Assembly (NCBI GenBank): GCA_001872985.1
Contig: MNYA01000425.1
Span: forward strand, 1 to 11,021
DNA from: a bacterium CG2_30_54_10
GTDB lineage: Bacteria > Muiribacteriota > Ozemobacteria > Ozemobacterales > Ozemobacteraceae
Reading direction: 5' to 3'
DNA length: 11,021 nt
Position numbers and translations under genes: made by a program. Below, piece by piece: positions 1 to 11,021 of the stretch. The notes beneath the pieces were generated by a model. The model saw only the letters and a list, made by a program, of their open reading frames with translations. It made no database searches and was not told the origin of the DNA. Position 1 is the first letter of the stretch. Each line of letters opens with the position of its first letter.

Positions 1-10
1 TCGCGAGGCG

Positions 11-36
11 AAGGGGGGCGCGTGCCCCCCTTTTTT
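11..36 (+). terminator. Rho-independent terminator of an upstream gene
   Basis: A 7-bp perfect G/C stem (GGGGGGC at 13-19 with GCCCCCC at 24-30, loop GCGT) can be extended by two A-T pairs and is followed at once by six T residues (31-36). This is the classic intrinsic terminator layout. The T-run lies only on the right, so it acts on transcription entering from the left and closes a gene that lies outside the window. Confidence 0.85.
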
Positions 37-55
37 GAGAAGTTACACCGGCGGT

Positions 56-186
56 AGCAAGACCCTAGCCGAAAAGCCCCGGCGTCCTACTCGTCTTGAA
101 ATGAAACATGAGTGTAGAAGGTGATCGCGCTTGGCGCCAATTTGCCTGACCTGCCAAAAAAGTACCTTTTCGGCTAGGGTCTAGCT
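56..186. repeat. Inverted-repeat element with 17-bp perfect arms
   Basis: The arm AGACCCTAGCCGAAAAG (60-76) is the exact reverse complement of 166-182. After one mismatch, three more outer pairs (AGC 56-58 with GCT 184-186) extend it to 20 of 21 positions. The spacer of 89 nt contains the palindrome TTGGCGCCAA and no convincing gene. The layout fits a short MITE-like element with terminal inverted repeats, or a long-range stem of a structured RNA or leader. No clear target-site duplication is visible. The repeat itself is seen directly; its nature is inference. Confidence 0.7.
131..140. repeat. Perfect 10-bp palindrome TTGGCGCCAA
   Basis: The sequence is a perfect dyad lying inside the spacer of the larger inverted repeat. 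It could be a protein-binding site or the tip of an internal hairpin, but nothing else supports a specific role. Confidence 0.4.
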
Positions 187-189
187 TGG

Positions 190-199
190 GGCGATCGCC
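190..199. repeat. Perfect 10-bp palindrome GGCGATCGCC
   Basis: This perfect dyad lies between the inverted-repeat element and the first gene. The sequence is identical to the HIP1 palindrome that is abundant in cyanobacteria, but its core GCGATCGC appears only sporadically here (again near 10571), so a HIP1-like role is not supported. It could be an operator for the downstream gene. Confidence 0.3.
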
Positions 200-311
200 G
201 GAGTTCCCAATGCGTCGATTCAAGTAAACCTGTGATTAACAAGCAATGAGTGATACCCTGGTGTGTGATCTCCGGCAAAACTTCGATCGAACGAAGGGGA
301 AATCCGAAAAC

Positions 312-1562
312 ATGATGACTTCAGGCAGAACAAAAATGCAAAATTCAGCATGGGCGCCGCATTGCGGGCGCCTTCGTCTTACGATTAGCGTTATCTCGCT
401 ATTGCTTTTTGCGGTTTCCGCTCATGCGATCGAGCATTCCGATGTGTTCGACACGCATCCGGATCCGCATCTGCTTGCAGCAGTAAAGCGGGCTTTTGGA
501 GATTCCGCGGCGTTCAGGGCAACAGGACTTTTCGATTGTATGGGTTATTCCCCGAGCCAGGTGACTCAGATGGCCGAAGTCACTCCAAGGCCTGCCGAAG
601 TAACGGTCGAGGCTTCTCCCGCCGATCCTGCCCACGGGACTTTTCATCGTCTGGCAGTCAGATGCCAAAAGGTCCGTTATTACAATATGATTATCGACCA
701 CGCGGTATTCGAGTTTTCTGAAATCGAGCTCGATCCAAACGCTTTGGCCGAAGACCGCCTTGTATTCAGGAGAACGAAAAATGTTCGGGTCGAAACTTTC
801 GTTTCAGCGGCGGACCTGTTGAAAATATTCGAGCTCGTTGCGCGGGCAAGGCGGCTATCCAACCTGAAAATGGAAATCGACGAACACGCTGCAAATTTGA
901 AAGGCGAGGTCAAGCAAGGCTTCATAACGGTACGGTTTTCGTTGTCCGGAACTCCCCAAATCACAGGGATTCGCCAAATCCACTTCCATTGCAGGTCTTT
1001 GGTTTTGAATGGGCTGAAAATGCCCCAGGGCGTGATCCGGGGAATCTTCTCCAGCATCAATCCCGTGTTTGACGCAAACCAGACGTGGCTTAATCTCGAA
1101 CTCGAAAAAATCGTTCTCCAAAAAGGGTTCGTCCGGACATGGGCTTGGATTAAACCGCCTGCGACGACGGTCCCGCGAAAACAGATTACAGGCAAAATTG
1201 GCGAGAAAGGCGAGCTCGGTAATGTGAGCGAGACTGGCAAGAGGGACGAGATCAGCAATACAGGCAAGATGATCGGGACTGGCAAGATAGGCGAGACCGG
1301 CAAAATTGGCAAGATATACGAGACTGGCAAAATCGGCAAGATAGGCGAGACCGGCAATATCGGCAAGATAGGCGAGACCGGCAAAATTGGCAAGATATGC
1401 GAGACTGGCAAAATTGGCAAGATATGCGAGACTGGCAAAATCGGCAAGATAGGCGAGACCGGCAATATCGGCAAGATAGGCGGGACCGGCAAAATCGGCA
1501 AGATGCGCGAAACCGGCAAGACGGGCAATTACGTCGAGGCCGGCAATTCCGGCAAAAAATGA
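312..1562 (+). CDS. Secreted DUF2993-like protein with 9-residue repeat tail
   Basis: The product is a predicted exported protein. From the ATG at 312 it is 416 aa. An N-terminal hydrophobic stretch (LTISVISLLLF) ending in AVSAHA looks like a Sec signal peptide cleaved after SAHA. The next part of about 250 residues resembles DUF2993/LmeA-like lipid-binding proteins: an early beta-rich region, 'ELDPNAL...RLVFRRTKNVRVETFVSAADL', and later 'LVLNGLKMPQGVIRGIFSSINPVFD'. From about residue 294 the chain becomes low-complexity, with Gly every third residue, settling into a 9-residue repeat. ATG 312 is preferred because AGGGGA lies 11 nt upstream and it places the signal peptide better; ATG 246 has no ribosome binding site and ATG 336 is also possible. 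The gene is followed by trmH after 7 nt. Binding or transport of a lipid at the periplasmic face is inferred from the family, not shown. Confidence 0.72.
   Translation: MMTSGRTKMQNSAWAPHCGRLRLTISVISLLLFAVSAHAIEHSDVFDTHPDPHLLAAVKRAFGDSAAFRATGLFDCMGYSPSQVTQMAEVTPRPAEVTVEASPADPAHGTFHRLAVRCQKVRYYNMIIDHAVFEFSEIELDPNALAEDRLVFRRTKNVRVETFVSAADLLKIFELVARARRLSNLKMEIDEHAANLKGEVKQGFITVRFSLSGTPQITGIRQIHFHCRSLVLNGLKMPQGVIRGIFSSINPVFDANQTWLNLELEKIVLQKGFVRTWAWIKPPATTVPRKQITGKIGEKGELGNVSETGKRDEISNTGKMIGTGKIGETGKIGKIYETGKIGKIGETGNIGKIGETGKIGKICETGKIGKICETGKIGKIGETGNIGKIGGTGKIGKMRETGKTGNYVEAGNSGKK
1299..1559 (+). repeat. 27-nt in-frame tandem repeat (about 9 units)
   Basis: Units of 27 nt start at 1299, 1326, 1353, 1380, 1407, 1434, 1461, 1488 and 1515, then a partial unit. 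Each encodes G-K/N-I-G-K-I-x-E-T, with x being Y, G, C or R. The units at 1380 and 1407 are identical. The last units diverge (RET, then VEA), and looser versions extend left to about 1191. Because the unit length is a multiple of three, copy-number changes would keep the frame. Confidence 0.93.
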
Positions 1563-1569
1563 ACTACTG

Positions 1570-2271
1570 ATGCCAACAAACCGCCGTCTGAATAGAATTG
1601 CTTCATCCATTCACCGGCGGCAGATGGATGTACTTCTCGCCTTGGAAGGAGTCCACGACCCGCACAATCTCTCGGCTATTCTCAGGACGGCTGATGCCAC
1701 CGGAATTCCCCGCATAATTTGGCAACCCGAAAGCGAGAATCCCGAGCCGCCTAACCATGAAATTGCCATGGGAACCGAGCGCTGGGTCGCCATGGAAATC
1801 GTTTCCGACCTGAAACAGCGCCTGATCGCCCTCAAAAAAGAAGGCTTTGCGATTGCCGCAACCCATCTCGGGAAAACATCGGTCGATTTCCGCAGCGTTG
1901 ATTGGACCCGGCCCTGGATCGTGGTTCTAGGCAACGAGCATCGGGGCTGCACTGAAGGTGTTCTCGAGATCACCGACACGAATGTCACACTTCCAATGTT
2001 GGGGTTCGTTCAGAGTCTCAATGTTTCCGTTGCGGGTGCTGTTCTGATGTATGAAATCCAGCGCCAACGCGAGATCGCCGGGTTTTTCTCAAGAACACAG
2101 CCTCCTGAAATCGTTCATAATTTGTTCGTCGCATGGAAACTCGAAATGCAAGGGATCAGCGAGGCCGATCTTCTTGCATTGCCCGGCAGTCTCCCAATTG
2201 ATGATCCCACACCCCACAAAGATGGACGGCAGCGCGGAAAACGCCCGAAGAAAGCTCCCGCGAGGGATTGA
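1570..2271 (+). CDS. trmH: tRNA (guanosine-2'-O)-methyltransferase TrmH
   Basis: This is a SPOUT-class (trefoil-knot) methyltransferase predicted to methylate the 2'-OH of G18 in the tRNA D-loop using S-adenosylmethionine, in the cytoplasm. Visible SpoU motifs are motif 1 NLSAILRTADATG (33-45, with the conserved Asn33 and Arg39), motif 2 IVVLGNEHRG (117-126) and motif 3 SLNVSVAGA (149-157). 'HLGKTSVDFRSVDWTRP' (99-115) matches the TrmH-specific region, which separates it from RlmB and TrmL. The length of 233 aa is close to E. coli TrmH, and the start aligns with that family, so ATG 1570 is preferred although no Shine-Dalgarno is evident. It begins 7 nt after the preceding stop, suggesting coupled translation. 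The C-terminus is basic (RQRGKRPKKAPAR), as suits RNA binding. Confidence 0.92.
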   Translation: MPTNRRLNRIASSIHRRQMDVLLALEGVHDPHNLSAILRTADATGIPRIIWQPESENPEPPNHEIAMGTERWVAMEIVSDLKQRLIALKKEGFAIAATHLGKTSVDFRSVDWTRPWIVVLGNEHRGCTEGVLEITDTNVTLPMLGFVQSLNVSVAGAVLMYEIQRQREIAGFFSRTQPPEIVHNLFVAWKLEMQGISEADLLALPGSLPIDDPTPHKDGRQRGKRPKKAPARD

Positions 2272-2358
2272 CTCCCTAACGAAAACCGCCTTTATTTTCG
2301 AATTTGAGTAAATAAATTCCCGAACCTTTCCGAATAGTCAACCACAGAAAGACTGCTT

Positions 2359-2362
2359 GGAG
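2359..2362 (+). promoter_or_regulatory. Shine-Dalgarno (GGAG) that favours the start at 2370
   Basis: GGAG ends 7 nt before the ATG at 2370 but only 1 nt before the ATG at 2364. The spacing therefore favours 2370 as the true start of the signal peptidase gene. Confidence 0.5.
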
Positions 2363-2369
2363 CATGGGA

Positions 2370-2897
2370 ATGATCGAATATATGGAAACATTTAAAGACT
2401 GGCTCAAAGATTTCTTCAAAGCTCTGATTTTTTTCTTCATTTTGCAGACCTATGTCGTACAGGGGTTTGTAATTGAGGGCGCCTGCATGGAGCCACAATT
2501 GCATACCGCGGAAAAGATCATGGTCAATAAGTTCGTGTACCACCTATGGACCCCTGTTGTCGGGGAGGTTATCGTTTTTTCGTTTCCGCTTGACCCCAGA
2601 AAGGATTTCATAAAGAGAGTTATCGGGAAATCCGGAGATCTGCTTGAAATCAAAAACGGCTTCCTTTACAGGAATGACCGTCGTGTAGCCGAATCCTTCG
2701 TAAAGGAATATGTCTTCGGAAGTTACGGGCCCTTAAGGGTTCCTGCCGGAAAGGTCTGCGTCATGGGTGACAACAGAAACAATTCACACGATAGCCGCGC
2801 CTGGGGTTTCCTGGATATCAGCCAGGTCAAAGGCCGGGCGGAGTTCAAATTCTGGCCTCCATGGTCTCTGGGACTGATCCAGTCGATATCCGAATGA
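2370..2897 (+). CDS. lepB: Signal peptidase I (S26 family) with Cys at the nucleophile position
   Basis: The product is a type I signal peptidase, the membrane-bound protease that removes Sec/Tat signal peptides on the outer face of the inner membrane. Counting from ATG 2364 (177 aa), there is one N-terminal membrane segment (about 17-36), then box B as GACMEPQL (39-46), box D as KRVIG-x-x-GD (84-92) with the general base Lys84, and box E as GDNRNNSHDSRAWGF (135-149). The protein is short, like the Bacillus Sip enzymes, and lacks the large insertion of E. coli LepB. The oddity is box B: the normal catalytic Ser of the S-M-x-P motif is Cys41, codon TGC at 2484-2486. All other boxes are intact, so it is probably a working enzyme with a thiol nucleophile rather than a dead gene, but this is inference. 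ATG 2370 is preferred on ribosome-binding-site spacing; 2364 is possible. Confidence 0.9.
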   Translation: MIEYMETFKDWLKDFFKALIFFFILQTYVVQGFVIEGACMEPQLHTAEKIMVNKFVYHLWTPVVGEVIVFSFPLDPRKDFIKRVIGKSGDLLEIKNGFLYRNDRRVAESFVKEYVFGSYGPLRVPAGKVCVMGDNRNNSHDSRAWGFLDISQVKGRAEFKFWPPWSLGLIQSISE

Positions 2898-2944
2898 GGG
2901 ATTTGACATGTTTCCCCTCGTTTGATTATATTTGGCAAGGGAAA

Positions 2945-3607
2945 ATGATGCTCGTGACCACGCGATTTCTCGCAAAAAGTTTTCAGTGCCCGGTCTGCGC
3001 CGGCCCCTTCACTGCGACAACGGTGGAGGCGGTAACTCACCAAGGCCAGGATTCGGATTTTTTCCCGCATTATCTCGGGGATGATCCGTTGCCATTCTTT
3101 CTTGTACAGTGTCCTGGGTGCCAGTACTGTGCCTATCCTGATGATTTTGCGGTCGGGGAATTCCAGAAGCACCCGGTGAAGTTTGAACTGATAAAAACCG
3201 TTCTTACCCAGCCGATTTCAAGGAAGCTTCCCCCGGATGCCGTCAGATATTATCTTGCGGGCAAAATATATGAAGCCCAACAGCGCAATCCGTACTTCAT
3301 AGGGAATCTCTACCTTCGCGGTTCCTGGTGCTGTCGCCGCGGGGACAACCGCAAGGCCGAGATAGAGCTTCAGCAGCTTGCGGTGAAATTCCTCCGCGAA
3401 TCCGTCGAGCGTTCGACCGTCGGAAATCCGGACAACCTGCCCGCAGTTACATACCTGGTCGGAGAGCTTTATCGAAGGCTTGAGGACAAGGCCCTTGCCC
3501 GGGAATGGTTCGGTACGGTCGAAGAAGTGGTTTCCGATGCAGAGCAGCAATGGATTCTCGATCTCGCCAAAAAGCAGGCCGAGCTGAACGAGCATTTCCT
3601 TAACTGA
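2945..3607 (+). CDS. DUF2225 zinc-ribbon/helical-repeat protein
   Basis: The protein is about 220 aa and resembles the DUF2225 family, whose function is not established. Near the N-terminus it has CPVC (15-18) and, after about 37 residues, CPGCQYC (56-62), giving two CxxC knuckles likely to bind one zinc ion. The rest is helical with TPR-like character: 'YYLAGKIYEAQQRNPYFIGNLYLRGSW', then 'AVTYLVGELYRRLEDKALAREWF'. There is no signal peptide or membrane segment, so it is probably cytoplasmic. ATG 2945 (or 2948) follows AAGGG at 2937-2941. An in-frame ATG at 2894 overlaps the stop of the signal peptidase gene as ATGA but has no ribosome binding site, so it is less likely. The short distance to the signal peptidase gene suggests co-transcription. 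Confidence 0.8.
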   Translation: MMLVTTRFLAKSFQCPVCAGPFTATTVEAVTHQGQDSDFFPHYLGDDPLPFFLVQCPGCQYCAYPDDFAVGEFQKHPVKFELIKTVLTQPISRKLPPDAVRYYLAGKIYEAQQRNPYFIGNLYLRGSWCCRRGDNRKAEIELQQLAVKFLRESVERSTVGNPDNLPAVTYLVGELYRRLEDKALAREWFGTVEEVVSDAEQQWILDLAKKQAELNEHFLN

Positions 3608-3715
3608 ACCTGCCCGTTTTTACCTTGGGATCTTCGTTCCTTCTTCGGGGTTTGCCTTCTGCTTCTCTGTTGCATCTTGTTCCAATCCCATTTGGTTAGT
3701 GCGTATCAAACATCG

Positions 3716-3775
3716 TAGCTGAGATCTTTAGCCCGCGCAGGCTGAAGTCTGCGACTGCGAATGAATTAGCTGAGA
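3716..3775. repeat. REP-like hairpin flanked by 9-bp direct repeats
   Basis: TAGCTGAGA occurs at 3716-3724 and again at 3767-3775. Between them lies a 7-bp hairpin, CGCAGGC (3736-3742) with GTCTGCG (3747-3753), loop TGAA and one G-T wobble. A small palindromic unit bordered by an exact 9-bp direct repeat fits an inserted REP-like element with a target duplication. It is equally possible that this is a chance pairing. The rest of the 310-nt gap before the pilus operon holds no gene that I can support. Confidence 0.4.
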
Positions 3776-3811
3776 AAATCCATTCGTATACCGCGCTTCG
3801 TTTGGGCGGCT

Positions 3812-3839
3812 TTGAAACCCGCAGATACCTGAATATTAC
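3812..3839 (+). promoter_or_regulatory. Candidate sigma70-type promoter of the pilus operon
   Basis: TTGAAA (3812-3817) and TATTAC (3834-3839) are separated by 16 nt. They match the consensus at 5 of 6 and 4 of 6 positions. They sit about 80 nt before the first gene of the downstream operon, in the only sizeable gap ahead of it. This is a pattern match only. Confidence 0.35.
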
Positions 3840-3847
3840 ACATTTCC

Positions 3848-3859
3848 GGAAAATTTTCC
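3848..3859. repeat. Perfect 12-bp palindrome GGAAAATTTTCC
   Basis: This perfect dyad lies just downstream of the candidate promoter and about 60 nt before the start codon of the phosphoesterase gene. It could be an operator for the operon, but there is no second copy to support this. Confidence 0.35.
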
Positions 3860-3904
3860 TCAACTGTTTCCTGGTTTCTCCCGATGGAGAGGTGGACTAC
3901 TTAC

Positions 3905-3910
3905 AAGGGA
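3905..3910 (+). promoter_or_regulatory. Shine-Dalgarno AAGGGA deciding a GTG start
   Basis: AAGGGA ends 7 nt before GTG 3918. It supports this GTG as the initiation codon for a protein that begins MKVLLISDIHSN, exactly where the phosphoesterase fold should start. Confidence 0.7.
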
Positions 3911-3917
3911 AGCAGCG

Positions 3918-4679
3918 GTGAAAGTCCTCCTGATATCTGATATCCATTCGAATTGGGAAGCCTGGCAAGCGGTTCAGGCGGCCACGGCGGCCGAGTCTCC
4001 CGATGAAGTCTGGAATTCAGGCGATTTAACGGGCTATGGGCCCGACCCCGCCTTGTGCGTGGATGTGTTCCGTTCGATGGCCAATGCCAGGCTGGTTCTT
4101 GGAAACCACGATCGGGTCGTTTCCAAGCTGGAAAGCCCCATCGGCTTCAATCCCCATGCGATTGTCGCGGCGTTCAAGAATCTGGCAAAGCTCAACCAGG
4201 AGCAGTGTTCCTGGTTGGCGGGTCTCCCCCGACAACTTGTGGTGAAAGAGGGAATTCTGATTTGCCACGGCAGTCCGGTTGATGCCGATGAATACTTGCT
4301 CACCGCACAGGTGACGCTTCCTTCTTTTGCTTTTATGAAAGAGTGGGGGATCAGGCTTGCCTTTTTCGGCCACACGCACGTTCCCAGCTTTTTCGTGTAT
4401 GGTGACGACGGGGATCTTGTCGCCGACCAGGATCCGTTGACCAATCAATGGTTCAACCTTGACCTGAGCGGTGGGAAGAGCTACCTCATCAACCCCGGTT
4501 CGGTCGGTCAGCCGAGAGACGGAGATTCGCGTTCAGCCTACGCGATCCTGGAACTCAAGGGGGAAAAGGGGCGTTTCTGTTTCCATCGCGTACCATATCA
4601 GATTCAAGTGTGCCAGGAAAAAATGCGCCGGGAAAAATTCCCGGATATCCTTGTAAACCGTTTGTCCATAGGGTATTGA
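3918..4679 (+). CDS. Calcineurin-like metallophosphoesterase (YfcE/MJ0936-like)
   Basis: This 253-aa protein is a dinuclear-metal phosphoesterase, probably cytoplasmic. All signature motifs are present in order: DIH (Asp8, His10), GDLTGYGPDP (35-44, Asp36), GNHD (62-65), CHGSP (116-120) and GHTHVP (151-156), then NPGSVGQPRDGD towards the end. These residues bind the metal pair and place it in the YfcE-like group, whose members act on small phosphodiesters or nucleotides; the substrate here is unknown. There is no signal peptide. Translation starts at a GTG with a well-placed ribosome binding site. Only 3 nt separate its stop from the start of the GspF-like gene, so it is probably the first gene of the pilus/secretion operon, although a role in that system is inferred only from position. 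Confidence 0.88.
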   Translation: MKVLLISDIHSNWEAWQAVQAATAAESPDEVWNSGDLTGYGPDPALCVDVFRSMANARLVLGNHDRVVSKLESPIGFNPHAIVAAFKNLAKLNQEQCSWLAGLPRQLVVKEGILICHGSPVDADEYLLTAQVTLPSFAFMKEWGIRLAFFGHTHVPSFFVYGDDGDLVADQDPLTNQWFNLDLSGGKSYLINPGSVGQPRDGDSRSAYAILELKGEKGRFCFHRVPYQIQVCQEKMRREKFPDILVNRLSIGY

Positions 4680-4682
4680 GCT

Positions 4683-5900
4683 ATGGAGAAAGTCCTCGTA
4701 AAATTTGCCGATGGTCGCGGGCGCATGAGGGAAACCGTATTCGAGACCCCTTCGATTATCCAGACCCGGAAAGCCTTGCTCGATCGCGGATATTTCATCA
4801 TTTCCGAACAGGTGCTCCGCCTCGGGCTCTGGGAGCGGCTTTCCCGTTTGTTCCCGTTTTTGGGCGGGGTTTCCCCCGGCGAACTGACGGAGTTCACCAA
4901 GCTTCTTCGAACCCTCCTCAAGGCTGGGCTTCCGCTGCATGACGCGCTTGATGTGTTCCTTGAAGACGCTTCCACTGGCCCTCTAAACCGGGCAATCGGC
5001 CAGGTTAAAGATGACATCGACGAGGGGATTTCCTTCAGCAAGGCGCTGGGAAGACATCCGATGATTTTTCCCGAAATCTACGTGCGAACGGTCATTGCCG
5101 GTGAGAAAGCGGGCGCCCTCGAAAGCATCCTCGAACGTCTGGTGATGCATTTCTCCGGCATGATCGCGATCCGACGAAAGCTCGTCAGTGCGCTCATCTA
5201 CCCGAGTATTCTCCTCTTGGTTGCGATGGGCGCCATCACTTACCTGGTGGTGAACGTGGTTCCCGAGTTCGCCGACCTTTTCAAAAGTCTTGATGTGCCC
5301 CTTCCGGCTTTCACGCAGGCAGTTCTTGGGCTGTCGACCATAATTGGTTCATGGTTTTGGTCGATTGCCGGATTCCTCGCGATCGCCATCTACGGATTCA
5401 TCAACTTTTCAAAAACTTCTGCCGGCCGGCTTGCGATCGATGGGATTAAGCTCCGCGCCCCGGTCTTCGGAGCGTTGGAAGAAAAGTTCGCCCTGAGCCA
5501 GTTTTCCCGAACGCTTTCCACGATGCTCAAAGGCGGTCTTCCGCTGGTTGAAAGCCTTGACGTGGTTCTCGACAGCATGCAAAACAAAGCTGTGGCCAAG
5601 CGCCTTGCAGACCTTCCGTTGATGTTGGGGAGAGGCGAAAGTTTCGCCAAATCGTTGAAACTGCTCAAAGGCATGCCCACGGTCATGATACGGATCGTCC
5701 ATGTGGGAGAGGAGTCAGGGAACCTGGGTGAGATGCTCCAGAACCTGGCGGATCATTACGACGAGGAGATCTCCAACCTGACGGGAATCCTGACCTCATT
5801 GGTCGAACCGGTTCTTTTCCTTGGAATGGCCTTCGTCGTCGGTTCATTCATAGTGGCGCTGCTGCTTCCGATACTTAGCGCCGCGTCGAACATACACTGA
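4683..5900 (+). CDS. gspF: Type II secretion/type IV pilus inner-membrane platform protein (GspF/PilC)
   Basis: This 405-aa polytopic inner-membrane protein would be the platform on which the ATPase drives subunit assembly. The family layout is complete. A short N-terminal cytoplasmic region (1-60) is followed by two homologous T2SSF domains. The first starts near residue 65 (GELTEFTKLLRTLLKAGLPL) and the second near 266 (EKFALSQFSRTLSTMLKGGLPL). Each contains the Glu-Lys/Glu-Glu-Ser-Gly type segment: 'AGEKAGALESIL' in the first and 'VGEESGNLGEML' in the second. Membrane segments lie at about 167-190, 219-240 and 374-398, the last ending in ALLLPILSA as usual. The length is normal for the family. 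The gene lies 3 nt after the phosphoesterase gene and 25 nt before the ATPase gene; F before E is the reverse of the common E-F order. Confidence 0.93.
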   Translation: MEKVLVKFADGRGRMRETVFETPSIIQTRKALLDRGYFIISEQVLRLGLWERLSRLFPFLGGVSPGELTEFTKLLRTLLKAGLPLHDALDVFLEDASTGPLNRAIGQVKDDIDEGISFSKALGRHPMIFPEIYVRTVIAGEKAGALESILERLVMHFSGMIAIRRKLVSALIYPSILLLVAMGAITYLVVNVVPEFADLFKSLDVPLPAFTQAVLGLSTIIGSWFWSIAGFLAIAIYGFINFSKTSAGRLAIDGIKLRAPVFGALEEKFALSQFSRTLSTMLKGGLPLVESLDVVLDSMQNKAVAKRLADLPLMLGRGESFAKSLKLLKGMPTVMIRIVHVGEESGNLGEMLQNLADHYDEEISNLTGILTSLVEPVLFLGMAFVVGSFIVALLLPILSAASNIH

Positions 5901-5925
5901 AACAGTCAGTCTCACGAAGAAAGAC

Positions 5926-7833
5926 ATGGGGGAACACATGGAATCAATCCGACAGTTCCTGATAGAGCAGAAGCTCCTCGATGAGGCTGCTGTGGATAAT
6001 CTTGCACACCAAGCGAAAAACAGCCAGGTCGATTTTGTCTCCCTCGTCGCTCAGGAAGCTAATCTCGACCCGGTCAAACTCCGCCATGCATTCGTTGGCT
6101 TATTCAAAAAGAAAGTATTCTACGAGATTCTGGTCGAGGAAAAGCTGATAAACATCGAGATCGTTCAGTCGGTCGTCGAAGAGTTCGGGGGAATTCCCCC
6201 GAATCTTGCACAGATTCTTATCGAACGTAAGCTCGTTAGCGAGGAACCAGCGACAATGGCTTTGGCGCAAGAACTTGGCCTCGATTATGTGGATCTTTCA
6301 ACCTACCAGGTGAATGACCAATTGTTCAACTCCGTAGATGTGGCGCTCATGCGTGCCTTTTCCTTCATCCCCGACAAACGTGGCGAAAAAGAGATTACCC
6401 TAATCATGGCAAATCCGGGAAACGTAGATCAGATTGAGGAACTCGAGGTCGAACTTGGTCTGCCGATAATTCCCAAAGTTGCTTCGCACCGGGCGATTCA
6501 AAAGCTTCTGGCGCTGATGGTCGAAACCAGCCTGGACTCTAAAATGGTTTTCGCCGATCTGGAAAACCTTCCCCCACTCGAGGTGGTGGCCGAGGAGGAG
6601 GCTGAGGAAGTCCCTCCATCAACCGGAGTCGCGATTCACCAGGAATTGAAGGAAGAAGCCCCAGTCGTCAGGCTGGTCGATTCGGTAATTCTCAAGGCGG
6701 TACGGAAAAGGGCAAGTGACATTCATTTCGAGGTTTATGAAGCCCAGTTGAAGGTGAAATACCGCATTGATGGCGTTCTCTTCGAAGTTCTGACCGATGT
6801 CGAGCCTCAAATGCGCGTGCCGATCATTTCGCGACTCAAGGTCATGGCTCAACTTGACATCGCGGAAAAGCGCGTTCCCCAAGACGGCCGGTTCAAACTG
6901 AAAATCGACGATCGCTTCGTTGATTTCCGCGTCTCCGTGCTTCCTTCGATCTTCGGAGAAACCGTGGTGCTGCGCATCCTGGACAAATCAGCATTCGGCC
7001 TTGATATCCGAAAGGTCGGCCTTTGCGGAAACGATCTTCTGGTTTTCCAGCGAAACGCGAGAAAACCCTACGGAATGGTTCTGGTGGCCGGCCCCACAGG
7101 TTCCGGAAAAACAACGACCTTGTACTCCGCGATAAATTTCGTTCATTCATCCGCCGACAAGTTCATCACGATAGAGGACCCGGTGGAATACCAATTTCCC
7201 GATATCGTCCAGATTGCCGTTAACGAGAAAAAAGGCCTGACCTTCAGTTCTGGGCTTCGATCGATCGTCCGGCAGGATCCCGATAAGATTATGGTCGGTG
7301 AAATCCGCGACCCTGAAACCGCTAATATCGCCGTAAACGCCGCTCTTACCGGCCATTTGGTGTTCAGCTCAATCCACGCCAATAACGTAACCGATGCGAT
7401 CTCACGGCTGATTAACATGAAAATCGATCCGTACGAGTTCGTAAGTTCATTCAATCTCATCATGTCGCAGAGGCTGATTCGAAACATCTGTCCAAACTGT
7501 AAAACCGATGACACAACCATCTCCGAGGAAGCAAAACGACTGACCGCTGATTTTTCGGCTCATGCAAACCTTCACTTCATGCGCGGATCGGGGTGCAGAT
7601 ACTGCCACCAAACTGGCTACCAGGGCCGATCGGGGATCTTCGAAGTGCTCGAAATGGTTCCCAAAATCAAGCAGATGATACTCACGCACGAGTCTCCTCT
7701 GCTCATCAGAAAAACGGCGATGGCACTCGGAATGGTCCCGCTCAGAAAGGCCGGATGGATAAAAATCGAAAATGGGGAAACCACCTTCGAGGAAATGAAC
7801 CGTGTCACATTCGAGGAAGGGGGGCTTGAATGA
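5926..7833 (+). CDS. gspE: Type II secretion/type IV pilus assembly ATPase (GspE/PilB)
   Basis: This 635-aa hexameric cytoplasmic ATPase would power extension of a pilus or pseudopilus. The N-terminal 205 residues contain three similar helical segments (LIEQKL at 12, LVEEKL at 69, LIERKL at 98), and the last leads into an MshEN/T2SSE_N domain. After an acidic linker (about 214-228) comes the ATPase core: 'KRASDIHFEVYE' and 'RISRLKVMAQLDIAEKR...DGR'-type segments, Walker A GPTGSGKT (389-396), Walker B IMVGEIRD (455-462) and the His box TGHLVFSSIHAN (475-486). Four Cys (522, 525, 557, 560) form the zinc-binding tetracysteine motif typical of GspE and PilB, absent from PilT retraction ATPases. 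ATG 5926 and ATG 5938 are both possible; GGGGGA just before 5938 makes the later one plausible. It overlaps pilM by 4 nt. Confidence 0.95.
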   Translation: MGEHMESIRQFLIEQKLLDEAAVDNLAHQAKNSQVDFVSLVAQEANLDPVKLRHAFVGLFKKKVFYEILVEEKLINIEIVQSVVEEFGGIPPNLAQILIERKLVSEEPATMALAQELGLDYVDLSTYQVNDQLFNSVDVALMRAFSFIPDKRGEKEITLIMANPGNVDQIEELEVELGLPIIPKVASHRAIQKLLALMVETSLDSKMVFADLENLPPLEVVAEEEAEEVPPSTGVAIHQELKEEAPVVRLVDSVILKAVRKRASDIHFEVYEAQLKVKYRIDGVLFEVLTDVEPQMRVPIISRLKVMAQLDIAEKRVPQDGRFKLKIDDRFVDFRVSVLPSIFGETVVLRILDKSAFGLDIRKVGLCGNDLLVFQRNARKPYGMVLVAGPTGSGKTTTLYSAINFVHSSADKFITIEDPVEYQFPDIVQIAVNEKKGLTFSSGLRSIVRQDPDKIMVGEIRDPETANIAVNAALTGHLVFSSIHANNVTDAISRLINMKIDPYEFVSSFNLIMSQRLIRNICPNCKTDDTTISEEAKRLTADFSAHANLHFMRGSGCRYCHQTGYQGRSGIFEVLEMVPKIKQMILTHESPLLIRKTAMALGMVPLRKAGWIKIENGETTFEEMNRVTFEEGGLE

Positions 7834-8909
7834 ACCTTTTTACCGAGTATTTCGCCCTCGATATTGGAACCCACGCCCTCAAGATTTTCTCTGTTGTTCC
7901 CGGAGAATCGGGTGAAGGCTTCAGTGTCAGCGACTGCCTTTGCGAGCCGTTGCCTTCCGGTCTCGTCTCCGGAGGTTTTACCAACCCACAGATTCGCTCT
8001 CTGCCGGAGTTTTCATCGATTGTCAAACGGACGATCGCCAAACTTGGATCGACCAAACAAGGATGCATTCTCGGTCTTCCGGACAGATGGGTGAAGCTTC
8101 ACCTGGTAGAGCTTTCGCTAAAATCGCACGAACTCGACGCGCCCGATTTCCTGAGCTGGCGTTTGCGAAAGACACTCGCCATCCCCGAAGGACTGGATGT
8201 CGCGGTCGATCAGCAGATCCTTTCGGTCAGGGAAACCGAAGAGGGATCGGCATGTCAAATCATGGCGGGGGCTGTTCGGAGCGATCTGTTGACAATCATT
8301 TCAACGGTGCTGGCCGACCTGAATGTCGAGTTGATGGCGATTGACACATCCACTCTCGGAGTTTACAACCTGCTTGAGGATCTTCACCCTGAAAACACCC
8401 TGGACCGGCATCTGGTACTATGCCATATCGGGCACGAGACCACGGTGGTGAAATTCTTTCAGAACGGCCGGATCAGTTACGAGCGAGTGATCGAGGTCGC
8501 GGGCGAAGAGTTCACGAAGCTTTTCGCGGCAAGCGAGAGCATCGATTTCGAGAGTGCCCAGGCGGCAAAGGAAAAGAAGAAGTTTTTTCCCCAAGGGAAA
8601 AGCGAGATTCTGGCTCAGGTTCCCAACCACCAAATGATCGCACGCATTTTCGGAAACTGGCTTAGGGAGCTGAACGTGACATTCAGGTTCTATCAGGACA
8701 AGTTCAAGGTCATGCGGTTGCCGCGGATTTATCTGACCGGAGGTTCCTGTCTTTTCCAAGGTTTGCCTGAGTTTCTGGCGGATTATTTTGAGACCGTTTG
8801 CGAGAGGTTCAACCCCGTGGCTGAAATTCCCAGTCATGGTCCGATAGATGAAAAGCTTTTGGCGCAAGGGCCGGTTTTCGCTCCCAGTCTTGGCCTGCTG
8901 GCAAGATAG
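7830..8909 (+). CDS. pilM: PilM-like actin-fold pilus assembly protein
   Basis: This 359-aa protein belongs to the PilM/GspL-cytoplasmic group, an actin-like (FtsA-type) fold that binds the cytoplasmic tail of PilN and links the alignment complex to the ATPase. Visible motifs are phosphate-1 'FALDIGTHALKI' (8-19, Asp11), the beta strand region 'ILGLPDRWV', 'GVYNLL', phosphate-2 'LCHIGHETTVV' (197-207) and the adenosine motif 'IYLTGGSCLFQGL'. There is no membrane segment, consistent with a cytoplasmic PilM rather than a full GspL. Phosphate-2 normally begins with Asp (DIG); here that position is His199, so nucleotide handling may differ. The start overlaps the ATPase stop as ATGA, and the PilN-like gene follows after 16 nt. 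Confidence 0.87.
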   Translation: MNLFTEYFALDIGTHALKIFSVVPGESGEGFSVSDCLCEPLPSGLVSGGFTNPQIRSLPEFSSIVKRTIAKLGSTKQGCILGLPDRWVKLHLVELSLKSHELDAPDFLSWRLRKTLAIPEGLDVAVDQQILSVRETEEGSACQIMAGAVRSDLLTIISTVLADLNVELMAIDTSTLGVYNLLEDLHPENTLDRHLVLCHIGHETTVVKFFQNGRISYERVIEVAGEEFTKLFAASESIDFESAQAAKEKKKFFPQGKSEILAQVPNHQMIARIFGNWLRELNVTFRFYQDKFKVMRLPRIYLTGGSCLFQGLPEFLADYFETVCERFNPVAEIPSHGPIDEKLLAQGPVFAPSLGLLAR

Positions 8910-8925
8910 GAGGCACTGAAACAAA

Positions 8926-9504
8926 ATGAAACACCTTTTGAATTTTTCCCCGCCAGTAAAATTTCGCAAGGGAAGCAGCTTCATGTTTCAAATAGTGATT
9001 TGCCTCCTGTACGCATTGCCCATTTTCATGGGTTTTGCGTTGTTGGACGAATTCATTGAATTGGAAGGCCTGATCGGGTATCTGGGCACTGCCTCGGAGG
9101 CGGTTGAAAAACGGCATGTCGAGTTCGCCAAGGCGCAATCCGGTGCCAGAGGGGATGTTGAAGACCGCGCGGCCATGGAGGGCCGCATGGTTGGTTATTT
9201 TAGGTCGCTCAGCGGCGCATCATTTTCCTGGACTACGTTGTTCGAGGCTCTCGAACGCACGGTTCCGGATGGTGTCCGATTGATCCGGATCAAGATCAAG
9301 CCCGAGTCCGTCGTCCAGATCTTCCTCGAGGGGGAAGCTTCCTCCCTGGATGAGGTGACGGACCTTCTTAGAAGGCTATATTCGCTTGAAAGGTTTTCCA
9401 ATCCGCACCTCAGCCGTCATTCGCGGGAGGAAACGTCCGCGGGGCCGATTATCAGATTCACTCTGGATGTCCAGTATCTTCCTGTTTGGGAGGCGCGGCC
9501 ATGA
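8926..9504 (+). CDS. PilN-like inner-membrane protein
   Basis: The 192-aa protein has the PilN layout: a short cytoplasmic tail, one membrane segment (about 19-40), a helical stretch (about 45-90) and a C-terminal ferredoxin-like domain (about 95-190; 'FSWTTLFEALERTVPDGVRLIRIKIKPESVVQIFLEGEA' is typical of Fimbrial assembly/PilN domains). The tail LLNFSPP (4-10) resembles a degenerate form of the N-L-L-P motif by which PilN binds PilM. AGGAGG (8908-8913) lies 12 nt upstream. The identification rests on fold-like pattern and position after pilM; sequence similarity in this family is low. It would form the periplasmic alignment complex with the next protein. Confidence 0.75.
   Translation: MKHLLNFSPPVKFRKGSSFMFQIVICLLYALPIFMGFALLDEFIELEGLIGYLGTASEAVEKRHVEFAKAQSGARGDVEDRAAMEGRMVGYFRSLSGASFSWTTLFEALERTVPDGVRLIRIKIKPESVVQIFLEGEASSLDEVTDLLRRLYSLERFSNPHLSRHSREETSAGPIIRFTLDVQYLPVWEARP
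9488..9493 (+). promoter_or_regulatory. Shine-Dalgarno GGGAGG deciding the start at 9501
   Basis: GGGAGG lies inside the end of the PilN-like gene and 7 nt before ATG 9501, whereas the in-frame ATG at 9486 precedes it. The downstream start is therefore favoured, and it overlaps the PilN-like stop as ATGA. Confidence 0.65.
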
Positions 9505-10034
9505 TGAGCCCTAAAGAGATCCAGAAACTTCGGGAATGGGCGCCTTTTCCGATTGTTGTGACATTGATCCTTTATTTCGCCCCGAGTTTTCTCATTGCTC
9601 CGCAGGTTGAGAACCTTGAAACAACCGGAAAATCGTTCGGCTCCCTTTTAAAGACTGTTAATGAGACGCTTGGTCAACGCGGCAAGGACAGACTTTACCG
9701 CGCCAGATTCGCGCGGATGACGCAAGAAATGGAGCGGCTTTCGAAGTGGCTTCCGCCGGAGAGCTATTTGCCCACCCTGATCGACCAGTTCAACTCCTTG
9801 GCGGAAATCCTCAAGGTCAAAATTAAAACGGTCGTTTATGGTTTCCCTTTAGCGGTTCCTGGGGGGCAGCCTCCCCGGATCGACATCCGTCTCAATCTTG
9901 AAGCGACTTATGAAAGTATGAGATCGTTCATCCAATCGGTCGAAAGTCTTCCTTCTCCGCTTGTGTTGACCGAGGTGGTGGCGAACAAAGATCGGACTTT
10001 TTCGCTGTCGGTTCAGCACCTGGTGAAACCATGA
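9501..10034 (+). CDS. PilO-like inner-membrane protein
   Basis: From ATG 9501 the protein is 177 aa with the PilO/GspM layout: a short cytoplasmic part, one membrane segment (about 16-33, PIVVTLILYFAPSFLI), a helical coiled-coil-like stretch (about 35-85) with 'RMTQEMERLSKWLPPESYLPTLIDQFNSLAEILKVKI', and a C-terminal ferredoxin-like domain ending in '...RTFSLSVQHLVKP'. The 'LP...LPTLIDQFNSLAE...V.I' pattern is characteristic of PilO. It would pair with the PilN-like protein in the periplasm. Its end overlaps the next gene as ATGA. The call depends on this pattern and the M-N-O order. Confidence 0.75.
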   Translation: MMSPKEIQKLREWAPFPIVVTLILYFAPSFLIAPQVENLETTGKSFGSLLKTVNETLGQRGKDRLYRARFARMTQEMERLSKWLPPESYLPTLIDQFNSLAEILKVKIKTVVYGFPLAVPGGQPPRIDIRLNLEATYESMRSFIQSVESLPSPLVLTEVVANKDRTFSLSVQHLVKP

Positions 10035-10660
10035 ACGAACCAACCGTTCCAATTCCCGAAAAGCGTCGTCTTGATATCATCGATACTGCTCTCCTCCGTC
10101 AAAGGGAGAAGCAAGCGCTGAAATGGCTGGTAATACTTTTTACTTTTTCGATTTTCTATGAGTTCCGTGATTTCTTTCAATCACCATTGTTAAAGCCGAA
10201 TTTCCCTGTTGCCGAGTTGAATTTGGCCAAGCGCCGGCCTTTCCCGGAAAAACGGATCCATCGGCTTTCTCAGGCATTGAGAGATCTTCAGCAGGCATTT
10301 CCGTTGATTCGCGATGCATTGAAACCTCAAATTGAAATTCTCGAATGGTTGAAGAAACGTGATCCAAAAATGGCTGGAAAGGAACAGCTTAACTCGCGAT
10401 TGGAGAATGTTCTGAATTCAATCTGGAGACTTTCACACTCTCAATTATGGGAAGACCGAAAGCCATTCATGACGGTTGACGCCGAAATGCTAACCCTTTT
10501 TACGCTTCTGCGGAAGTCGCCTCCTGATGAGCAGGAGTTGCCGATTCTCACGATTGGACCCAGACCTATTGGCGATCGCGAGCCGGCCGGCCGGGATCTT
10601 TTTCAATTCCACGAGGCCGAAAAGCCGTCGAAACCCCTCTCAGGAGGCGATGAAAAATGA
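10031..10660 (+). CDS. Unrecognised single-pass membrane protein in the pilus operon
   Basis: I do not recognise this 209-aa protein. It has a basic N-terminal cytoplasmic part (1-28), one hydrophobic segment (about 32-44, WLVILFTFSIFYE), then a mostly helical, charged periplasmic region (about 75-165) and a Pro-rich end (about 168-209) with GRDLFQF at 187-193. It occupies the place where PilP or GspC usually follows PilO. A short Arg-Asp-x-Phe segment near the C-terminus is reminiscent of the linker before the PilP/GspC homology domain, but the domain itself is not visible, so that equivalence is speculative. It overlaps both neighbours by 4 nt (ATGA), which argues for tight co-expression. 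Its codons look somewhat more A/T-rich than those of the preceding genes. Confidence 0.8.
   Translation: MNEPTVPIPEKRRLDIIDTALLRQREKQALKWLVILFTFSIFYEFRDFFQSPLLKPNFPVAELNLAKRRPFPEKRIHRLSQALRDLQQAFPLIRDALKPQIEILEWLKKRDPKMAGKEQLNSRLENVLNSIWRLSHSQLWEDRKPFMTVDAEMLTLFTLLRKSPPDEQELPILTIGPRPIGDREPAGRDLFQFHEAEKPSKPLSGGDEK
10642..10647 (+). promoter_or_regulatory. Shine-Dalgarno AGGAGG for the prepilin gene
   Basis: AGGAGG lies 9 nt before ATG 10657. A nearer ATG at 10650 is in a different frame that stops after about ten codons, so 10657 is the start of the prepilin. Confidence 0.65.
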
Positions 10661-11021
10661 CGGGCGGAGGCTTTGTTCCTGACGCTACAAATGGGCAGAC
10701 TTCAAATTGCCCCTGTCGGAAAGCGAGGAATCGGAGAGCCGGTTTCACTCTGATTGAGATGTTGGTCGTTCTTTCAATCATTGGAATAATCATTTCCTTC
10801 ACTGGGCATCGGAATACGATGGTCGTTGAAAGATCGCGCGATGCCGCTCTGATGATAGATATTAGCCATCTAAGAACGGCGATTCACCAGTTTGCCCTCG
10901 AATCCGGAGGCCGTTTTCCGGCCGCATTGGACGAGCTTTCTCCCAGGTTCATAACCCGGAAACCTGCGGAATGGAAGGGTTCCCGGGATGATGGGGTATA
11001 TGGGTATGACTCCGAGTCAGG
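10657..11021 (+). CDS. Type IV prepilin/pseudopilin, 3' truncated by the window edge
   Basis: The first 121 codons of a prepilin-like protein are seen. A 29-residue positively charged leader ends in RRAG and is followed by FTLIEMLVVLSIIGIIIS, the class III signal peptide: prepilin peptidase would cleave between Gly29 and Phe30 and methylate Phe30, and Glu34 is the conserved Glu at +5. The following helix (30 to about 80) and a globular start with 'SGGRFPAALDELSPRFI' and, near the edge, 'GVYGYDSES' resemble GspG/GspH-like pseudopilins. The leader is long and contains CPC (18-20). ATG 10657 overlaps the previous stop as ATGA. Whether it is the major subunit or a minor one cannot be decided from this part. 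Confidence 0.9.
   Translation, partial: MTGGGFVPDATNGQTSNCPCRKARNRRAGFTLIEMLVVLSIIGIIISFTGHRNTMVVERSRDAALMIDISHLRTAIHQFALESGGRFPAALDELSPRFITRKPAEWKGSRDDGVYGYDSES

Follow-up and report, generated by a model that had tools for sequence, protein, structure and literature searches.

A lineage-fixed paralogue of type I signal peptidase with cysteine at the nucleophile position, a probable Cys/Lys enzyme of Candidatus Ozemobacter and its relatives

Introduction

Signal peptidase I (SPase), which removes the secretion signals of exported proteins, is the textbook example of a protease with a Ser/Lys dyad and a target for antibiotics. Its S26A members, such as Escherichia coli LepB and Staphylococcus aureus SpsB, are the closest described counterparts of the protein considered here, which is encoded in a stretch of DNA of 11,021 nucleotides (the window) from the bacterium CG2_30_54_10 (contig MNYA01000425.1 of assembly GCA_001872985.1, positions 1 to 11,021 of the forward strand). 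The window protein is like these enzymes in its equivalog-level profile score, fold, Lys general base, GDN..S.D box and N-terminal helix, but unlike them it has a Cys nucleophile, Gly39 and no Thr45. An engineered E. coli leader peptidase carrying the same Ser-to-Cys substitution (S90C) is reportedly active, but it is a laboratory mutant and not a natural lineage.

Two further systems invite comparison. SipA of Streptococcus pyogenes has lost both residues of the catalytic dyad, and the pili that it serves are built by sortase (PMC4049620), whereas the window enzyme keeps the Lys and box E. The octanoyltransferase LipB shares with our reading of the window enzyme a Cys/Lys dyad and a thioester intermediate, which gives the proposed chemistry a precedent; in contrast, it moves an octanoyl chain taken from acyl carrier protein, and the text consulted does not speak of it as a protease (PMC9307952). 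A paper of 2026 describes the proteins of the superfamily as Ser-Lys enzymes, and the words 'Cys' and 'cysteine' are absent from its main text (PMC12984324). Among the matches listed from the open-licence literature of PubMed Central (PMC), we found no natural Cys signal peptidase described, and the term S90C occurred in only one of them, unrelated to signal peptidases. The natural Cys-type variant that we present below is real, and we did not find it described in the literature searched.

Cysteine in Place of the Catalytic Serine

The gene lies at 2364..2897 on the forward strand of the window, as do all the features given below, and corresponds to an open reading frame (ORF) of 177 amino acids (aa) on which our residue numbering is based; since most close homologues measure about 175 aa, translation probably begins at the ATG at 2370. 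Box B reads FVIEGACMEPQLHTAE, and the position of the catalytic nucleophile Ser is occupied by Cys41, encoded by TGC at 2484..2486, as a preliminary description of this DNA had claimed. That description also held that the general base and box E are intact and that the Thr following M-x-P is changed to Gln, and both statements stand: Lys84 (2613..2615, within the stretch DFIKRVIG) and box E GDNRNNSHDSRAWGF (2766..2810) are present in the window ORF and conserved in its relatives, and Gln45 (2496..2498) takes the place of the Thr found in most Ser-type enzymes. The protein scores 140.3 bits against PF10502 (Pfam cut-off 22.9) and 145 bits against TIGR02227 (NCBIfam equivalog cut-off 47). The family profiles, Lys general base, box E of the form GDN...S.D and SPase fold are those of S26A, and the catalytic Ser of box B is missing, with Cys instead; since the window protein and every close homologue that could be read have this Cys, the protein is a variant and not a canonical serine member of S26A. 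Its N-terminal helix (residues 3-30, 2370..2453; AlphaFold2 (AF2) model, mean predicted local distance difference test score 92.6) is presumed to be its single membrane anchor.

The family of the window, Candidatus Ozemobacter/Rifleibacterium of the Riflebacteria, comprises 24 genomes, including the window's own metagenome-assembled genome (MAG) of 2.83 Mb, which is 67% complete. The Cys-type gene is present in 21 of these, among others in the named records of Candidatus Ozemobacter sibiricus (L038) and Candidatus Rifleibacterium amylolyticum (L040), whose frames have the same length and score as those of genomes already counted in the family and which we therefore regard as identical with these; the 20 genes from other genomes are 63-80% identical to that of the window and every one has Cys at the site. 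Among the best 120 of 326 homologues, those with at least 60% identity (n = 64) have Cys in 61 cases, start after the site in three and have Ser in none, so that the Ser in close homologues which the preliminary description had named as counter-evidence is not seen; those with 46% identity or less (P0067-P0120, n = 54) are all Ser. The remaining two are P0063 (49% identity), which has Cys, and P0062 (55%), which shows at the site a non-matching stretch that may be a frame error. A scan of named genomes, with peptide patterns that could overlook other Cys groups, found 11 Cys loci, all of the window's family by sequence, and 69 Ser loci among the 80 listed of 519 relatives. Of 22 genes in which the codon itself was read (the 21 of the family plus that of genome G122, discussed below), 11 use TGC and 11 use TGT, so the cysteine has been maintained through synonymous change.

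Three explanations are ruled out by these data: a sequencing error or lone allele, by the Cys of the orthologues, the codon usage and the readable close homologues; a degenerating gene, which the preliminary description had also rejected, by the conservation of Lys84 and box E together with the purely synonymous variation of the Cys codon; and an oddity of one MAG, by the same gene neighbour in 18 of the 21 family genomes.

The same genomes also have an ordinary enzyme. The second, Ser-type lepB that the preliminary description had thought worth seeking is present in the window MAG, with the motif GSMEPTL and a TIGR02227 score of 140 bits, next to what by eye look like rplS and rbgA. Of the 24 family genomes, 23 yielded a Ser paralogue of this kind; Cys and Ser forms occur together in 20, the Ser form only in three, and the Cys form without a Ser form in one (G022, 82% complete). 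In a quick tree of 106 rows that kept the Cys column, the 22 Cys rows are set apart by a branch, as are the 23 Ser paralogue rows, each with a support of 99 in the Shimodaira-Hasegawa-like approximate likelihood-ratio test. In the other families of the phylum (15 genomes) all 26 S26 frames have Ser.

We consider it probable that the gene encodes a lineage-fixed paralogue of type I signal peptidase in which Ser has been replaced by Cys as the nucleophile, forming with Lys a Cys/Lys dyad, and which acts as a second signal peptidase beside the Ser-type LepB. The sequence, its fixation, the synonymous conservation, the intact Lys and box E, the fold, the paralogy and the gene order are direct observations. 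From the conserved Lys, box E, the fold and the lone swap of the nucleophile we argue for a working dyad, which is the simplest reading, and we infer thiol catalysis, cleavage activity and a restricted set of substrates. Lys84 would deprotonate Cys41, and the resulting thiolate would attack an exported precursor, on the outer side of the membrane, at its scissile bond. The signal peptide would then be bound as an acyl-thioester until a Lys84-activated water released it. The Cys-type enzyme would thus work beside the ordinary Ser-type LepB, probably on a subset of exported proteins.

Several observations weigh against this reading. The evidence consists of MAG sequences only. The top structural match by Z is the non-catalytic SipA (Z 16.8, root-mean-square deviation 3.5 over 136), tied with true SPases. 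Three family genomes (G001, G020 and G021, 69-83% complete) have no Cys-type gene; one of them, G021, has at a contig edge a piece of pilB that is 76% identical to the pilB neighbouring the Cys gene. Finally, a Ser enzyme may have been overlooked in G122, which is 83% complete.

Cysteine Types beyond the Family

How far does the Cys form extend among S26 proteins? A wider search with P0063 as query (best 120 of 364) and then with a profile (best 120 of 7996) recovered a sister group of six proteins, including P0063 itself, that have Phe at position 132, and a second Cys group of 19 proteins with the motif VYGSCMEPNLxTGERL or near to it (P0237-P0249, P0253, P0263, P0272, P0279, P0309 and P0128), here called YGSC. 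In a sample of 381 genomes, 205 of which gave a match at E 1e-30, we read 89 other S26 loci, 80 of them hand-picked from the higher-scoring rows: 88 have Ser and one has Cys (L193, in genome G122), proportions that are not an unbiased prevalence because the profile was built from Cys-types. G122 is a candidate-phylum genome, the sole one of its phylum among the genomes analysed, in which PF10502 matches nothing but the Cys form. TIGR02227, with the same cut-off of 47, gave 148-177 bits for seven Cys-types of these other groups. Around the Cys-type S26 gene of G122 (L280:7958-8695) we observed a preceding MiaB-like radical SAM gene (Pfam) and a following tldD-like gene (by eye), with proteins resembling PilM/N/O by eye about 2.5 kb away, two of which were scanned and gave no Pfam match.

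The taxonomic home of the YGSC group was sought with profile A4 (E 1e-54), which matched six of 386 sampled genomes, a sample overlapping that of 381, and none of these was YGSC: one belongs to the window's family (G003), one is the singleton G122 and four are Ser. Likewise, the six matches at E 1e-57 in 50 genomes of the phylum of G316 are all Ser. A scan of viral contigs found no relative, and the 485 records of a plasmid search, compared by identity, all fall below 60%.

Aligned cores (residues 30-150, duplicates removed) numbered 518, namely 102 Cys, 410 Ser and six without a readable residue. The Cys cores span the window's family, the sister group, the YGSC group and G122; they were sorted by that very residue, so that the figure of 102 is a count and not a test of fixation. 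Lys84 is invariant in both sets (102/102 and 410/410). Gly39 (2478..2480) occurs in all 102 Cys cores vs 119 of the 410 Ser cores, and Thr45 in no Cys core vs 362 of the Ser cores, including 89 of the 119 that have Gly39; its loss is thus common to all the Cys-types found. As few lineages contributed the Cys cores, these counts do not represent independent events. In E. coli numbering we take Gly39 to correspond to Ser88, Thr45 to Thr94 and Cys132 to position 269.

Cys132 (2757..2759) is a second conserved cysteine restricted to the window's group, where it is found in 76 of 76 cores; the position is Phe in 26/26 other Cys cores and in 357 of the 410 Ser cores, and Cys in none of either. Because no cysteines other than Cys41 and Cys132 are widely conserved in the group, and Cys132 appears in no other S26 core read, one could envisage a redox-gated signal peptidase, in which reversible oxidation of Cys41, alone or with Cys132, would make the secretion of client proteins follow the redox state of the periplasm. 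We regard this as unlikely: the other Cys-types all have Phe, which indicates that Cys132 is dispensable for a thiol enzyme, and its side chain may point away from the site, judging by the E. coli structure.

The absence of Thr45 from all Cys-type cores hints at altered surroundings of the active site and bears on another alternative, a thiol acyl-transferase or transpeptidase in which an amine, instead of water, resolves the thioester and joins something to the acyl part. Thioesters favour aminolysis as a matter of general chemistry, and in LipB, with its Cys/Lys dyad, the amine of a lysine attacks the thioester (PMC9307952). However, the acyl part in an SPase is the signal peptide, transfer would modify that peptide for no obvious purpose, and the Cys-type sequence is otherwise that of an ordinary SPase; we find this possibility very improbable.

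In evolutionary terms, the sequences are compatible with one to three possible origins of the Cys form. The window's group and the sister group fall together in a quick tree of 97 rows, from which the Cys column was dropped, and in a careful tree of 73 rows, from which 24 of the 97 had been removed by hand as long-branched or near-duplicate (support 100/98 in the latter). YGSC and G122 are placed elsewhere in both trees, giving three Cys/Ser changes, which may equally be one gain and two losses. Against a single origin, the starred branches of the careful tree force at least two changes of the Ser label, and none of 200 bootstrap trees has one change. Constraining the three multi-row Cys groups as one clade on the careful tree cost 8.4 log units and was not rejected (p of the approximately unbiased test, p-AU, 0.198); adding G122 to that clade raised the cost to 19.9, a borderline result (p-AU 0.055). 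On the quick tree the constrained trees beat the free one by 35.5 and 6.6 units (p-AU 0.915 and 0.574), so the search there was incomplete. A more far-reaching proposal would be that thiol signal peptidases form at least one old branch of S26, with the signature Gly39-x-Cys41-Met-x-Pro-nonThr45, possibly as the sole signal peptidase of some lineages, and that Cys132 or thioester chemistry has led in the Ozemobacter family to redox-gated secretion or amine transfer; we would give this proposal a rather low chance of being correct.

Gene Neighbourhood

Directly 3' of the Cys gene, on the same strand, lies a DUF2225 gene (2861..3607, start probably internal; PF09986, 85.5 bits), the neighbour that is shared by 18 of the 21 family genomes, with the exceptions of G007, G018 and G019. 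Further downstream the window has assembly genes like those of type IV pili or type II secretion (pilC, pilB, pilM, pilN and pilO-like, 4683..10034). In 15 of the 21 genomes, the window's own included, the pair is followed by pilC and pilB, in some with a phosphoesterase gene ahead of these, and pilM, pilN and pilO come next on contigs of sufficient length, as far as their proteins can be recognised; the contig of G004 ends too early to judge. In G009 and G014 we found the pair of Cys gene and DUF2225 with no pil genes adjoining, and in G018 neither neighbour adjoins the Cys gene, which makes a strict pilus role for the Cys-type enzyme unlikely.

This arrangement, together with the structural match to SipA, gives substance to the idea of a non-proteolytic protein with the SPase fold, which would help the adjacent pilus system as a chaperone or in assembly and would keep Cys41 for another reason, such as a disulfide or structure; SipA is, after all, needed for pilus polymerisation despite its lost dyad (PMC4049620). 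According to the same text, the dyad positions of SipA are occupied by Asp and Gly, whereas no Cys-type read here lacks Lys84 and box E hardly varies, and the pili in question are assembled by sortase and are not of type IV. Moreover, the Cys-type gene persists in the three genomes in which no pil genes were found adjoining, and G122 has no S26 match other than the Cys form. Taken with these points, a SipA-like function seems to us quite improbable.

The gene pair may be older than the cysteine. In G024, from another family of the phylum, a Ser-type S26 gene overlaps a gene with a weak match to the DUF2225 protein of the window (25% identity, E 2.3e-6), a locus that may be ancestral; the trees do not group its S26 protein with the Cys clade, so its orthology is at most putative.

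Two further features deserve mention. The window genome (G000, an incomplete MAG of 2.8 Mb) has 24 matches to the PilB/GspE-like ATPase of the window, which suggests that it has many systems like type IV pili or type II secretion. Upstream of the Cys gene, an ORF of 438 aa (246-1562) ends in a collagen-like GKIGETGKIGKI repeat, a 27-bp unit in about nine copies at 1281-1519, across which frames on the opposite strand are open too.

Conclusions

A match to PF10502 or TIGR02227 should be taken with caution, as it does not always denote a serine protease. The Cys-types would constitute a family in which the switch from Ser to Cys can be studied together with the accompanying change of Thr45, and, if our reading is true, they are predicted to differ in their behaviour towards inhibitors and redox conditions. 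Fixed natural Cys/Lys forms would then mean that the nucleophile of this secretion enzyme can change class in nature.
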